Source: a virus. From it: 37,412 nt of DNA. Below are positions 5,987 to 23,384 of the stretch, one piece after another. Made by a program: the position numbers and the translations under genes. Numbering within the stretch: the first letter of the stretch is position 1; every line of letters starts with the position of its first letter. The notes below the pieces were generated by a model that was not told where the DNA came from, did not search any database, and saw nothing but the letters and a program-made list of their open reading frames with translations. The stretch covers positions 1-37,412 of IMG/VR virus record IMGVR_UViG_3300023179_000267, one strand, 5' to 3'.

Positions 5987-6234
5987 TTCGGTTTTTCGGA
6001 GTTTTTGATGGCCTCAACAATCACATAATTAATGACTGCTTCATTGTCCTTGGCAAGCATTTCCATTCCAATTTCAAAAAGCTCTTTTCCAGCTTTTTCA
6101 TCATACTCAATATCAACAAGCACATACTTAGTTTTGTCTTGGCGGCATTTCCCAAACTTAATTATACCAAGTCCCTTGGTATCTTCGCCTTTTTTGGCTG
6201 ACCTAATTCCAATTTGCGGCTTTTCTTTTTTCAT
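5974..6234 (-). CDS. Small basic protein of the transferase cluster, function unknown
   Basis: An 86-residue protein when started at 6234, which has an AAGGGA-like ribosome site; a start at 6255 adds seven residues. Both overlap the end of the large glycosyltransferase gene. The N-terminus is strongly Lys-rich (KKEKPQIGIRSAKKG), followed by strand-helix composition (KYVLVDIEYDEKAGKELFEIG). I do not recognise a family. It sits between transferase genes and overlaps both neighbours, so it may be an accessory subunit. Confidence 0.6.
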   Translation of the reverse strand: MKKEKPQIGIRSAKKGEDTKGLGIIKFGKCRQDKTKYVLVDIEYDEKAGKELFEIGMEMLAKDNEAVINYVIVEAIKNSEKPKCRK

Positions 6235-7864
6235 AGATGGCTTTCCCTTTTTCATAGAACTCTGGCTTGTTGTGGTGCTTAATTAGATCGTCTGGCTGTC
6301 CTCCTGTAAAGAGGGGATTTTCATGCTTGAATTGAATATGTTTGGCCTCAATCACAACCCCATCACCATAAGCTCTTTCCGTAAATTCATTGTCTGAATA
6401 GATGCCGTCACTCTCTTGATAATTGGGGTGGAACATATAGCCACCCTGCTTATCAAGCCTCTTTTGCGTTAAAATAGCCATACAGAGGAGTTTATCTGTC
6501 CTAAGGCCATCAGATATTGCCAGCACCTTTTCCTCGTTTGTAGCCCCAATAGCGTTTGAAATTAGGGCATCCCAATGCCTGGGCGGACTCCAATCATCAC
6601 TCATTTGAATTAAAATCTCCCCATTGGCCTGTTTTGCCCCGTAGTTCCATGCATTTACAATGCCCCCTGGGTTGGCTCTTAGTGCTTGATGTGGGGTGTA
6701 GTCTTGTGGATCATCGTGATCGACAACAAAAATCCACTCAATTTCAAGAGGGTTTTTTGCCAGCATAAGCCATTGGTGTCTCCTCTGCCAAGCAATTTGC
6801 GGCCTACCTTTTGTGGCGTGAATGATTGAGATTTTTGGGGATGGCCTAGATTTTTTTATTTTTTCTGCTTCCTCTTTTTTGCCCACACAAACAGAGGCTG
6901 TTTCGTAAATATCTAAGCATTGCCATTGGTAGATTGCCTCTACCAAATTCCAGTAGTGGGCAGTTGGCCTTGGTAGGCTCATTGCCGCCCGTGCCGCTCC
7001 CCATGCCTTTACCCATTGCCCCCTTGCAGAATATTCAACCGCCATCCAATAGTGGGCTTCCCTTCTGTCCGGCATAATGGCAATCGCCTCGCCAAGATAT
7101 TTAAGCTTTTCCTCTGCTGTTGGGGCGCATCTTCCCATGTTGCAAAGAACATCATAACGAAGCGTATCCTCTAGCTCTGGAAATTGAATTGCCAGCTTGC
7201 CATATTTCAAGCAGTCCGCCCAATTCTGGGTTAGAAAATGCTCTTGTTGGGTATAATAAAGTGCGTTTGGGGTTGGCTCTAGGGTATCTTTTAGGATTGC
7301 AAAATTTCTGTCTGCTGATGTCTTTTTGTATCCTTTTGGATTGTGAACCCTAACTACCTTGTCGATTCCGAAAATCTTTGACTGATCCTCAGCCACAAGC
7401 ATTTCATGAACACGATTCTTCCATTTGCATTTTCCTTTAAGGCTGACCATCTCTCGGATGGGTATGAGGCCAGCGTTAGCCACGAAATATCTAAATGCAA
7501 TAAGCTGTGCATCTCTTTCCTCTGCCTTGGTTATAGCTTCATCAATAACCACCTCTGCACCAGGTTGCATTTCATCATCGGCATCTACCCACATTGCCCA
7601 CTTCTCATAACAGGCTTCTAGGGCCGTGTTCCTTGCAGTTGCAAAGTCATCTATATGAGGCCAATCCGTTCTTTGATTCTTATAATGAACAACTCTAGCC
7701 CCGTGAGCCAATGCAACCTTTTCCTCCTCGGCTGTCGGATTGCTCCCCCCAGCCAAGCAAACAACAAACTCCTTTGCAATGGGCTTGAAGGAATTAAGGC
7801 ATCTTTCAAGATATTCGGCTTCATTGCCGCCACAAATAAGATAAACAGACAGGGGATTTTTCAT
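6203..7864 (-). CDS. Two-domain family 2 glycosyltransferase with central helical repeats
   Basis: A 553-residue protein. Residues 1-200 form one GT2 domain: Leu/Val-rich first strand, ERCLNS, FATARNTAL, and the DxD-type WAMWVDADDE (D94-D97). Residues about 210-330 are helical and TPR-like (YYTQQEHFLTQNWADCLKYG onward). Residues about 345-550 form a second GT2-like domain (SIIHATKGRP, FVVDHDDP, QMSDDW). Two catalytic domains in one chain suggest two sugar transfers or a synthase. It is the first gene after the capsid terminator. Its start has no strong Shine-Dalgarno but shares GAAATCCTAATG with two other genes. Confidence 0.75.
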   Translation of the reverse strand: MKNPLSVYLICGGNEAEYLERCLNSFKPIAKEFVVCLAGGSNPTAEEEKVALAHGARVVHYKNQRTDWPHIDDFATARNTALEACYEKWAMWVDADDEMQPGAEVVIDEAITKAEERDAQLIAFRYFVANAGLIPIREMVSLKGKCKWKNRVHEMLVAEDQSKIFGIDKVVRVHNPKGYKKTSADRNFAILKDTLEPTPNALYYTQQEHFLTQNWADCLKYGKLAIQFPELEDTLRYDVLCNMGRCAPTAEEKLKYLGEAIAIMPDRREAHYWMAVEYSARGQWVKAWGAARAAMSLPRPTAHYWNLVEAIYQWQCLDIYETASVCVGKKEEAEKIKKSRPSPKISIIHATKGRPQIAWQRRHQWLMLAKNPLEIEWIFVVDHDDPQDYTPHQALRANPGGIVNAWNYGAKQANGEILIQMSDDWSPPRHWDALISNAIGATNEEKVLAISDGLRTDKLLCMAILTQKRLDKQGGYMFHPNYQESDGIYSDNEFTERAYGDGVVIEAKHIQFKHENPLFTGGQPDDLIKHHNKPEFYEKGKAIYEKRKAANWN

Positions 7865-17566: not shown

Positions 17567-18046
17567 TCATAGTGGGCGACCGCAAGCCTGGCACTTTTCA
17601 TCCTGTTCCTTTTTAGCCTCTTCTTCTGGGGTTGTCTGCTCCATCAACTCCGCAAGCTCATCAGCACCAAAACCTGTAATATCTAGGTCAATTTCTCCTG
17701 TGTCCAAATCCTCTAACAAGTCTTTCAATGCTGGCAGTTCAAACTCTCCACTCAATTTATTAAGGGCAATGTTGGCCGCCTTTTCCTGTTTTTCCTCAAG
17801 CCACACAGCCCAAACATCCACAACCTCAACACCCATGGCTATATAACACTTTAGCCTTTGATGCCCACCAACAATCCTGTTAGTTTTTGCATTCCAGGTG
17901 ATGGGCTGAAGGTTGCCCAACTCATGCAAACTCTTTGTTAGTCTGCCAAGAGCATCGCTGGAAATTTTCCTTGGATTGTATGATGCTGGCAACAATTCAG
18001 AAATTTTCTTTTGTGTTAGATGAGGAAACTTTTCTTTTTCTTTCAT
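17567..18046 (-). CDS. ParB/sulfiredoxin-like nuclease-domain protein
   Basis: A 159-residue protein with the ParB N-terminal fold: KISELLPASYNPRKIS, LTKSLHELGNLQPITWN and the phosphate-binding box GGHQRLK (60-66). It lacks the HTH of chromosomal ParB. The C-terminus ends in CQACGRP, a possible half zinc site. Phage proteins of this type are often next to terminase or DNA-modification genes and may act as nucleases or CTP/ATP-dependent switches. Here it immediately precedes TerS (three-base gap). Confidence 0.8.
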   Translation of the reverse strand: MKEKEKFPHLTQKKISELLPASYNPRKISSDALGRLTKSLHELGNLQPITWNAKTNRIVGGHQRLKCYIAMGVEVVDVWAVWLEEKQEKAANIALNKLSGEFELPALKDLLEDLDTGEIDLDITGFGADELAELMEQTTPEEEAKKEQDEKCQACGRPL

Positions 18047-20349: not shown

Positions 20350-21267
20350 TTAATGTTGTTCTTGGTTGTTGGGATGGCATTTTCTGTGCTTTTCAGCAAC
20401 AATCATTGGAGTTGTATTGTTCCACTTGATTAGGTGATGAATCCTTGGATTGCTAGTGTTCATCATTGAAACCTTAACCCCAGAGGGATGCATCATAACC
20501 GTAGTGAAGGCCTTGCAATATGTCCCATATCTCAAGTACATATCTGTTATTCCCCTTTTCTGGCTCTGGGTTGCGGTCTGCACCAAGCTTATCATTGGAA
20601 TGGTTCCAAACAAAATCCCTCTTGAACCAAGGGTTGTATAGGTGTTCACATCCTCATTCATTGCACCAATAAACTGGAATGGCCTGTCCGTAGAGCAGAT
20701 AAATGAGTTCATGCATTTTCTAATCAAGGGCTTCCTGGTTGTATACCTGTTTTCAACACCTCCAATAAAGTCCCCGCCCTGGGCAAAGGCAATGCTGTGG
20801 AATCCTGTTTCCTTGAAGAATTTAAGGTAGGAGCAAAGCACCCTGTCCAGGTCTTCTATTTTATGAACATTGAGCTTCTGCCCGCATTTGCTCACATACC
20901 TATACTCAAATGATATGTAGTCATCGTCCAGTTCCATGAAATACTTTATGCCAAGCTCTTTGGCTATTTTGAAACAAGCATTCCTGGCGTGGGTGATTGT
21001 CCTTCTTTCATCGAAGTTGTTGCCCTCGTCCACTTGGTCTGCCATCTCTTTTTTATTAAATATAACAACCCTGTCCTTGCCAAAGTTATCAATATATTTG
21101 TCTGCTGTTTTGTCCTCGTCATCAATCACAAGGTAAAGTTTTCCTGTGTAGCCATACCCCTTAAGGGTGGCCATGGTCTTTACATTGGTGGGTCTGCCGT
21201 GGGTCAGTATGAATATGGCAAAGGATTCACTCTTGATGCTCAAGATATTGGTTCCTGATTTCCTCAC
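20350..21267 (-). CDS. TET-associated-type DNA-base glycosyltransferase (TAGT-like)
   Basis: About 305 residues; the start codon is uncertain (GTG at 21267, or TTG at 21240 with AGGAAC upstream). The sequence has the TAGT signature I recall from phage genomes: FAIFILTHGRP (16-26), KLYLVIDDEDKTADKYIDNFG, VVIFNKKE, NNFDERRTITHARNACFKIA, and the DxD site MELDDDY (111-117). Members of this family were proposed to glycosylate oxidised pyrimidines in phage DNA. It is tightly linked to the partner gene at 21227-21631. No base oxidase is evident in the window. Confidence 0.8.
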   Translation of the reverse strand: MRKSGTNILSIKSESFAIFILTHGRPTNVKTMATLKGYGYTGKLYLVIDDEDKTADKYIDNFGKDRVVIFNKKEMADQVDEGNNFDERRTITHARNACFKIAKELGIKYFMELDDDYISFEYRYVSKCGQKLNVHKIEDLDRVLCSYLKFFKETGFHSIAFAQGGDFIGGVENRYTTRKPLIRKCMNSFICSTDRPFQFIGAMNEDVNTYTTLGSRGILFGTIPMISLVQTATQSQKRGITDMYLRYGTYCKAFTTVMMHPSGVKVSMMNTSNPRIHHLIKWNNTTPMIVAEKHRKCHPNNQEQH

Positions 21268-21631
21268 ATAGCTTCACATAGCCATTCTCAATGGCCTGGT
21301 TAAAATCAATTATTACTAAGGCTGATTTTTCCATAAGCCTTTGCATTTGCGGGGATGCGTGGGCGTAGTAATCTGCGATGAGTTCATAATTAAAAATGTT
21401 ATGCCTTCCAGCGGCTTTTATTAAAAAATCTGCCTCTTCTTTTGTTATTTCTTTTGATTCTAAAATTTCTCTGGATAATTGGTTGCATTTACCACAATCA
21501 ACAAGCTCTAAAATATTTGGCTTTCTTTCCCCCGGCTGATAAACTGGGGCTTCGATTTTTGTGGAATATTTTGAGTCTTTTTCTTCGGCCTCAATCTCTC
21601 CAAAAAGATTTGCCTGTTTTGCAAGGCTCAT
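21227..21631 (-). CDS. Conserved partner of the TAGT-like gene, function unknown
   Basis: A 134-residue protein from the ATG at 21631, fixed by ATGA overlap with the upstream stop; a GTG start to 21643 is less likely. Recognisable blocks are KPNILELVDCGKCNQLSREI, EADFLIKAAGRHNIFNYEL, IADYYAHASPQMQRLMEKSA and LVIIDFNQAIENGYVKL. I have seen this pattern next to phage modification genes, but know no activity. It overlaps the glycosyltransferase gene, which supports a joint role. Confidence 0.65.
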   Translation of the reverse strand: MSLAKQANLFGEIEAEEKDSKYSTKIEAPVYQPGERKPNILELVDCGKCNQLSREILESKEITKEEADFLIKAAGRHNIFNYELIADYYAHASPQMQRLMEKSALVIIDFNQAIENGYVKLCEEIRNQYLEHQE

Positions 21632-21825
21632 TGGTTTGTCCACGCGATCTGCCAGCCCTTATCAGACCTTTTCATAATTCTGGCTGGCTTGTCTGGAACA
21701 TTGGCCATTGCTATTTCCATTGTTGGATATGCTTTTGGCAGTTCTTTCCAGCATAACAGGTCTTGAACCTGTATCTTGAACAGAACCACCTCTTTCCTAG
21801 TGCTGGGCAGGTCTTTAAGCAACAT
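21628..21825 (-). CDS. Small hypothetical protein, 65 residues
   Basis: Starts MLLKDLPSTRKEVVLFKIQV at the ATG at 21825, overlapping the upstream HTH gene by 11 bases. Composition is mixed strand/helix with several Lys and Trp (RIMKRSDKGWQIAW). No family is recognised. Continuous overlaps on both sides support expression. Confidence 0.55.
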   Translation of the reverse strand: MLLKDLPSTRKEVVLFKIQVQDLLCWKELPKAYPTMEIAMANVPDKPARIMKRSDKGWQIAWTNQ

Positions 21826-22090: not shown

Positions 22091-22644
22091 CGTTTTTTTC
22101 TTTTTTCAGGATAGTTATGCCTGGATTGCTTTCTCGGCTCCCATCCCTGTTTTTTTGCGTGGCAGATTGATCCGTGATCGCATCCCCAAGCCCTAGCAAT
22201 AGCGTTCATTGGAACCCCTGCTTCATATTGCGCCCTCCATAATGCCCATCTTTTTTGTACAACCTCTATCTTTCTATTGTTGCACTTGCCATATTTGCCC
22301 TTTAAAACCCTTAATTCGTGCGGGACGATGATTTGTGGTAAATCTATGGCTTCCCTGCTCTTTGCCTTTTCTAGACCCATTTGTGCTTCAATTTGACCTA
22401 TTCTGGAGCAAAGTGGCTCAAGATAGGCTTTGATTGGGTCGTTATTTAGGCGTTGTTCAAAGATTCCTACCTTGAGTTCAAGCTTTTCAAGCCTCTCCTC
22501 AATAGTTGAAAGCCTCCTTGGTGTTTTAATCCTTTCCTCAAAGTTTGCGGCCTCTTCAACTAGGGTTTTGTATTCTGGAACAACCTTTCTGTATGGAACA
22601 AATCCCCTTTCTTTGTCCCTGTTATATGCCTGGGCAAGACTCAT
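22087..22644 (-). CDS. Coiled-coil protein with C-terminal HTH
   Basis: A 185-residue protein from the ATG at 22644 (ATGA with the initiator stop). Residues about 45-100 form a coiled coil (RLSTIEERLEKLELKVGIFE). The C-terminus has GVPMNAIARAWGCDHGSICHAKKQGW, a helix-turn-helix, then a basic tail (SRHNYPEKRKKR). It could be a replication partner (loader-like position after the initiator, as lambda P follows O) or a regulator; the HTH favours DNA binding. Confidence 0.6.
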   Translation of the reverse strand: MSLAQAYNRDKERGFVPYRKVVPEYKTLVEEAANFEERIKTPRRLSTIEERLEKLELKVGIFEQRLNNDPIKAYLEPLCSRIGQIEAQMGLEKAKSREAIDLPQIIVPHELRVLKGKYGKCNNRKIEVVQKRWALWRAQYEAGVPMNAIARAWGCDHGSICHAKKQGWEPRKQSRHNYPEKRKKR

Positions 22645-23384
22645 GAGGGAGACCCTGCCTTTGCCCAATCTGCATAGGATGAAAAGCCCATTACCCTATA
22701 AAGTGGGGCGGATTCGCATGATGACTTTGGTTGTGGTTTTGATTGCATTGCGTGTGTTCCTTTCTGTTTTGTTTGGTTCCTTCTGAAGCAGTTTCTAGCG
22801 GCGGCTTGCCAATTCTTGACCGGGGCTTTGCCCCCGACCTTCCAGCCGTTTGACTCATAATGATCGAAGGCTCCCTGCACATCCATCCCAACCCATCCAA
22901 TGGTTTTTGCATATTCAGACCATTGCGAAAGTGTGGGGCGCACTTGTGCCCTCTCTCTCTTTATATCTAGCCTCTGGCCTCTGGCTTCTAGCCTCTGAGG
23001 GGTTACATCTTGGTTACAAATTGGTTTCATGTTGGTTACATGATGGTTACGCCATCTTAAAACCTTGTCCCTATTTGACTTGCGGCCACGCTCATCCTTG
23101 ACCATTCTGCGTGAAAAGATGGTGTCTTGCTCCATCGAATAGACCCCAGCTTGGGCAAGTTCGACCAGCAATTCCGAGGTTCGTTCCAAGGATTCACCGA
23201 AGATTCGGGCGATATGTTCGGCCCCCATCGGCTTATCCCCGGCCAACAAATAGCCGTGCTTTTTTGACTTTGCCATAAGGCAAATCATATCGACCCAAAG
23301 CCCTCTTGCCGCAGGGGAACAACCACGAAGGGCTTCGTCAGAAAGCCAATCAGAGGGATAAAATTTGAGCCAAGGCAACTTCAT
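22641..23384 (-). CDS. Replication initiator-like protein carrying iterons
   Basis: A 247-residue protein. The N-terminus PWLKFYPSDWLSDEALRGCS and PAARGLWVDMICLMAKS matches the winged-helix opening of DUF1376/Lin1244-type phage replication proteins. MGAEHIARIFGESLERTSELLVELAQAGVYSME is the recognition part. The C-terminal half (FDHYESNGWKVGGKAPVKNWQAAARNCFRRN) is the typical end domain of this family. The linker (residues 110-128) is encoded by five tandem 11-bp iterons, as in lambda O. Confidence 0.75.
   Translation of the reverse strand: MKLPWLKFYPSDWLSDEALRGCSPAARGLWVDMICLMAKSKKHGYLLAGDKPMGAEHIARIFGESLERTSELLVELAQAGVYSMEQDTIFSRRMVKDERGRKSNRDKVLRWRNHHVTNMKPICNQDVTPQRLEARGQRLDIKRERAQVRPTLSQWSEYAKTIGWVGMDVQGAFDHYESNGWKVGGKAPVKNWQAAARNCFRRNQTKQKGTHAMQSKPQPKSSCESAPLYRVMGFSSYADWAKAGSPS
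22951..23055. repeat. Five 11-bp iterons plus adjacent repeats: candidate replication origin
   Basis: On the plus strand ggttacatctt, ggttacaaatt, ggtttcatgtt, ggttacatgat and ggttacgccat run head to tail from 23001 to 23055. Just beside them tctagcctctg occurs at 22966-22976 and 22987-22997, and a pyrimidine run (ctctctctctttatat) occupies 22951-22966. The 11-base period shifts the reading frame every unit, so protein repeats do not explain it. Location inside the initiator gene matches the lambda origin plan. Confidence 0.7.

Follow-up and report, generated by a model that had tools for sequence, protein, structure and literature searches.

The window, by which we mean the whole stretch of viral DNA analysed (37,412 nucleotides), carries on its minus strand a gene for a putative replication initiator, in the middle of which lies a compact cluster of repeats (Table 1). 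On the gene strand, five iterons (23050-22998) are followed by a block of heptads (22997-22965), after which come an AGAGAG tract and, at 22951-22936, an inverted repeat.

Table 1. The putative initiator gene and the repeat elements inside it
Feature	Coordinates	Strand	Sequence	Core and its start on the gene strand	Remark
Putative replication initiator gene	22641..23384	minus			replisome-organiser-like, 247 aa; profile matches and AlphaFold2 model
Iteron 1	23040..23050	minus	GTAACCATCAT	GTAACC, 23050	
Iteron 2	23029..23039	minus	GTAACCAACAT	GTAACC, 23039	
Iteron 3	23018..23028	minus	GAAACCAATTT	GAAACC, 23028	deviates from the other units; with GTAA at this place, a TAA stop would fall in frame
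Iteron 4	23007..23017	minus	GTAACCAAGAT	GTAACC, 23017	
Iteron 5	22998..23006	minus	core + CCT	GTAACC, 23006	
Heptad array	22965..22997	minus	CAGAGGC-TAGAAGC-CAGAGGC-CAGAGGC-TAGAT		consensus TAGARGC, with C replacing T where the frame would read TAG as a stop
Purine tract after the heptads	22951..22964	minus	ATAAAGAGAGAGAG		
Inverted repeat	22936..22951	minus	GGGCAC-AAGT-GCGCCC		one A-C mismatch; most relatives have a perfect 6-8 bp stem

An earlier note on this DNA had described five 11-bp units within the gene. TRF placed the array at 23001-23050 (period 11, 4.5 copies, 82% matches), the sole period-11 array that it listed in the window, so that the description stands for the five cores, while the number of full units is 4.5. 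When the gene was shuffled synonymously 5000 times with the protein preserved, the observed identity between adjacent units (34/44; shuffled mean 23.3, s.d. 2.4) was never reached, which, with the TRF call and the core positions, establishes the array as real. The pair pattern GTAACCNNNNTGTAACC, allowing at most two mismatches, occurs four times in the window, each time within the array, against 0.28 expected, and no further copy of the array was found in the window. The repeated tctagcctctg of the earlier note proved to be part of a second tandem array, of 7-bp units, that adjoins the iterons (TRF: AGAGGCY, 4.6 copies, 22966-22997; the units can also be written YAGARGC); its score was reached in 11 of 5000 synonymous shuffles. 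The CT/AT-rich tract was also found, at 22951-22964. In purine content, the 45 nt that follow the iterons rank at the 98th percentile of the gene, and the AT content of the candidate opening tract is 49%, compared with a gene mean of 50% (37th percentile of the gene).

The protein is predicted to comprise a winged helix (residues ~8-95), a basic helix (~104-112), a disordered linker encoded by the arrays and a C-terminal domain. Its identity as an initiator is probable from weak profile matches: Phage_rep_org_N (PF09681) was matched in Pfam with an E-value of 0.016 and 15.6 bits, below the gathering cut-off of 23.3, and PHROG 13246, a replisome organizer, with an E-value of 0.0086. Among 33 relatives, 17 matched Phage_rep_org_N at E-values of 0.1 or lower, the best being 5.3e-05. 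The AlphaFold2 model consists of helices and a two-strand wing, with pLDDT values of ~85-92 across residues 21-90, and thus predicts the N-terminal domain expected of winged-helix initiators. The pLDDT falls below 50 at residues 119-121 and 123-146, a disordered stretch that largely coincides with the part encoded by the arrays. Foldseek matches were weak and mostly of the winged-helix type, including a Rep-DNA complex (5kbj); the best PDB fold matches were winged-helix proteins of the CRP/NtcA type, all with E-values of at least 0.0088. A sequence-based search with the protein found no convincing relative of solved structure, NCBIfam gave no match, and no homology to the lambda O family was found in Pfam or PHROGs.

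The nearest annotated phage relative is gp56 of Pseudanabaena phage Pam1, whose gene lies immediately downstream of a replicative helicase gene. Scans of the larger window proteins revealed neither a replicative helicase nor a polymerase, from which it follows that the phage probably recruits the host replication enzymes. Elsewhere in the window, a TET-associated glycosyltransferase (TAGT; Pfam E-value 2e-33) is encoded at 20350-21267, which suggests that the phage DNA contains glycosylated modified cytosine, and ParB-like proteins are encoded nearby (21227-21643 and 17567-18046). A 553-aa protein with two glycosyltransferase-like regions (6203-7864) adjoins the major head protein gene.

Scans of viral contigs yielded 70 distinct homologues of the 247-aa protein, on which the alignment test proposed in the earlier note was run. 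The 11-bp period is constant, and the residues that it encodes vary: relatives with 40-89% identity have HHVTNMKPICNQDVTP, GHVMQMKQECNANVMP, GSVTQMSNGCHAFVTG and GDVQTMSSECPEKITG at this place. The only linker periods that stood out over the 70 homologues, which are not independent of one another, were 11, 7 (with 14 as 2 x 7) and, in one branch, 6. Where additional iterons occur, they come as 12 bp (encoding VTPT, VTHD or VMPD), so that the frame is kept. Core switches run along whole arrays: GTAACC is found in the window and L001, GTAATG in L002, L016, L017 and L023, GTAACG in L003-L012, L014 and L015, and GTCACG or GTCCAG in another clade; by eye, the core is GAAACG in L262 and of the CAAGATG or CAAAGATG type in the most divergent branch. 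In a tree calculated without the linker the switches are nested, with L216 (GTC) inside a GTA clade and L231 and L238 (GTA) inside the GTC clade.

A GTAA core repeated at a strict 11-bp step must place TAA in frame in one of every three successive units, which here is unit 3. Of the 21 distinct GTA-type arrays, 20 have GAA in this unit and one has GTC, whereas in GTC-type arrays, in which the core cannot make a stop, unit 3 is GTC like its neighbours in all 19 cases (counts that leave out 7 of 47 arrays read in the wrong register). The heptads bear the same kind of scar: T is the first letter of 73 of the 99 units in positions 2, 3 and 5, and of not one of the 66 in positions 1 and 4, where it would create a TAG stop. 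The lack of stops is trivial; the telling point, as we read these alignments, is that the consensus comes back wherever the frame permits.

The repeats also occur outside the gene. A heptad scan revealed four contigs with iterons and heptads and no long reading frame over them. In three of these (G001-G003, 53.6-64.7 kb) the initiator homologue lies 16-47 kb from the module and its linker is deleted over the arrays, while the non-coding copy comprises GTCACG iterons ~11 bp apart, four heptads, TAGATATACA and a hairpin; the fourth contig, at 9.4 kb, is not long enough to decide the question. The three relocated modules (L409, G001:26118-26145; L382, G002:48506-48533; L405, G003:223-250) are situated beside a serine-recombinase-like gene; the initiator gene of G001 is at 43.4 kb. 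The module can thus exist outside the gene, and its relocation is the strongest evidence that it works as DNA. The earlier argument that a period of 11, not being a multiple of three, marks an array kept at the DNA level is strengthened both by this relocation and by the stop-codon scars in the two arrays. The earlier note had also named homologues lacking the array as evidence against its reading: these three relatives have it elsewhere, but several distant homologues (mostly at most 34% identical) have no detectable in-gene array.

Conservation of the hairpin was apparent in the relatives of the window protein. Of 46 distinct relatives, 31 have a perfect stem of at least 6 bp following the purine tract, where synonymous shuffling would lead one to expect 1.0, which points to selection at the DNA level; the window's own hairpin, having one mismatch, is not significant alone (p ~0.11). 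The R149 codon (CGC or CGT) tracks the codon three upstream, GCG being paired with CGC in 7 of 7 cases and ACG with CGT in 20 of 20. The only pair with a clear two-sided change (A-T/G-C, 18/8) reflects this same synonymous codon choice. Covariation controls for the whole helix were mixed, and the synonymous-shuffle test is the stronger one. In unrelated initiator families the hairpin was significant in only 2 of 21, and we claim it for the family of the window only. A search for known RNA families across the region returned only a sub-threshold miRNA match, attributable to chance.

The heptads have a wider distribution than the family itself. Stretches with four heptads numbered 54. By inspection, 37 of them fall in initiator-like genes, several from families unrelated in sequence (DUF1376 and others) and most with their own repeats upstream, such as L361 with GTTCAACGGAC; roughly a dozen belong to other genes or to non-coding repeats. 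In the unrelated initiator-like genes (L361, L364, L368, L373, L374, L381, L391, L393, L401, L402 and L408, some of them DUF1376) the YAGARGC heptads are mostly placed directly downstream of the differing repeats. Tandem CAGAAGC or TAGAGGC heptads were also seen in L365, L376, L377 and L406, with no initiator gene at the site. A separate scan found families with 11-bp GTTAC arrays, and in most of these the same place was occupied by purine repeats of the AAGAG or AGAGTA type. Such GTTAC arrays are found in other phage initiator-like genes (L089, L104, L118, L132, L135, L140 and L153), where the coding strand mostly continues with short tandem repeats rich in purines, and L089 and L153 contain two separate groups of GTTAC units each. 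There are also 11-bp GTAACA arrays without a long reading frame over them (L083, L092, L095, L107, L121 and others), possibly other iteron origins or operators. Over 27 cases, 15 of which contain heptads by selection or kinship and so are not independent, the coding strand is rich in purines over the 45 nt that follow the iterons (the median case ranks at the 96th percentile of its gene, and 16 of the 27 reach the 95th or higher).

A tentative explanation of this distribution, which we consider less likely than not, makes (YAGARGC)n a second origin element that is portable and stands in for the usual AT-rich tract. It would be recognised sequence-specifically by a factor common to many phages, and unrelated initiators with entirely different iterons would each have acquired it directly beside these. 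Candidates for the factor are the replicative helicase, the loader of this helicase and a segment shared by the initiators, and the heptads might be read as a single strand.

The choice of iteron core presents a puzzle. The proteins of L001, L008 and L023 (the contigs of L203, L211 and L259) differ from one another at only 2-4 of residues 2-112, each of them in the stretch 106-111 just before the array, and their cores are GTAACC, GTAACG and GTAATG, respectively. Near-identical winged helices are thus paired with different cores, which rules out co-evolution of winged helix and core as the sole cause of the switches. The residue preceding R112 follows the core (W or F with GTA; K, M or Q with GTC; 2 exceptions in 61), a correlation that may be hitch-hiking, being tightly linked to the array. 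Either the basic segment (106-111) reads the last core positions, or the arrays are homogenised and exchanged as cassettes and the winged helix is tolerant.

The arrangement is known from lambda, whose O gene contains the origin; in its Stx-phage relatives, O is lengthened by additional iterons (PMC7466680). As in the window, the lambda iterons lie in mid-gene, with a purine-rich coding strand directly 3' and then an imperfect inverted repeat; lambda has four annotated iterons of 18 bp, compared with five of 11 bp here, and its AT-rich tract is 76% AT, compared with 49% for the heptads. We recognised no loader resembling P in the window. The tract after the iterons reaches a purine percentile of 0.957 in lambda and only 0.678 in the Lactococcus phage TP901-1. 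In the rep gene (orf13) of the latter, repeats inside the replication gene were reported as the origin. The TP901-1 record annotates a 'replication protein, experimental', and its sequence has an A-rich tract after two repeats; it differs from the window in the protein family, annotated as a DnaD-like helicase loader, and in having other repeats in few copies. Gene 38 of SPP1 (G38P), likened to the window by description only, is a replisome organiser with an in-gene origin, oriL, made up of direct repeats and an opening element, and a second, separate origin, oriR, lies ~13 kb away (PMC6316719), comparable to the relocated module of G001-G003. In pSK41 rep the winged-helix N-terminal domain binds mid-gene boxes and the linker encoded by the origin is dispensable (PMC5703833); this is a plasmid protein of the RepA_N family, and the likeness noted is one of arrangement. 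In Vibrio PLE the DNA-binding domain of RepA and its origin form a swappable module (PMC8263062), but that origin is intergenic, and in the window family the core changes with an almost unchanged winged helix. Phased direct repeats selected as DNA within a gene, here one weakly identified as an initiator, are a feature that the window shares with origins of the lambda O kind. Less expected from known in-gene origins are the shared heptads, a second element that is purine-rich and not AT-rich, and the hairpin kept in relatives.

We therefore consider that 22936-23050 is very probably a replication origin inside the gene of its own initiator, as the earlier note had proposed; the fixed period across homologues, the stop-codon scars and the relocated modules all support that proposal. 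What the sequences show is the layout of the region and selection on the iterons, the heptads and, among relatives, the hairpin as DNA. GC skew gave no signal for an origin and is uninformative, since nearly all genes are on one strand. In the mechanism that we envisage, the winged-helix domain would bind the five 11-bp iterons, whose spacing of about one helical turn would set the copies on the same face of the DNA in a single nucleoprotein complex. This complex would open the strand-asymmetric tract of purines beside it, which comprises the heptads and AGAGAG; the C-terminal domain would bring in the replicative helicase or its loader, and the inverted repeat would be a further, putative origin element. 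The protein segment encoded by the arrays would be no more than a flexible linker.

An operator or binding site, for autoregulation of the early operon or for another phage DNA-binding protein, would show an identical array with a spacing of about one helical turn, and ParB-like proteins are encoded nearby. We nevertheless regard such a site, with no origin, as unlikely: the array sits in the middle of the gene, together with another, strand-asymmetric array and a hairpin arranged as in the lambda ori, the array that left the gene moved together with its heptads, and unrelated phages have their own iterons and heptads within initiator-like genes. Iterons of plasmids also have partition, packaging or incompatibility roles, and the ParB-like genes could be cited in favour of one of these here; since the module accompanies initiator-like genes of diverse families and not ParB or terminase genes, we judge this quite improbable. 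Least credible of all are slippage-born minisatellites or useful coding for a flexible linker with an incidental DNA pattern, which fit the predicted disorder of the linker and the presence of heptads in non-coding DNA or unrelated genes (e.g. L365, L367 and L377) but not the constant period with varying residues, the stop-codon scars, the synonymous-shuffle tests or the relocation to non-coding DNA.

In-gene origins have so far been known from a few model phages and plasmids. Compared with the arrangement familiar from lambda, the phage described here stands out for its unusual second block of repeats and for the uncommon clarity of the evolutionary evidence. The heptads, common to unrelated initiators, point to a second origin element, of which no description was found in the literature searched. 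This family of environmental phages constitutes a natural mutational series, with core changes of whole arrays, predictable frame scars and three relocated modules, and the series makes the specificity and evolution of iteron-initiator pairs directly testable.
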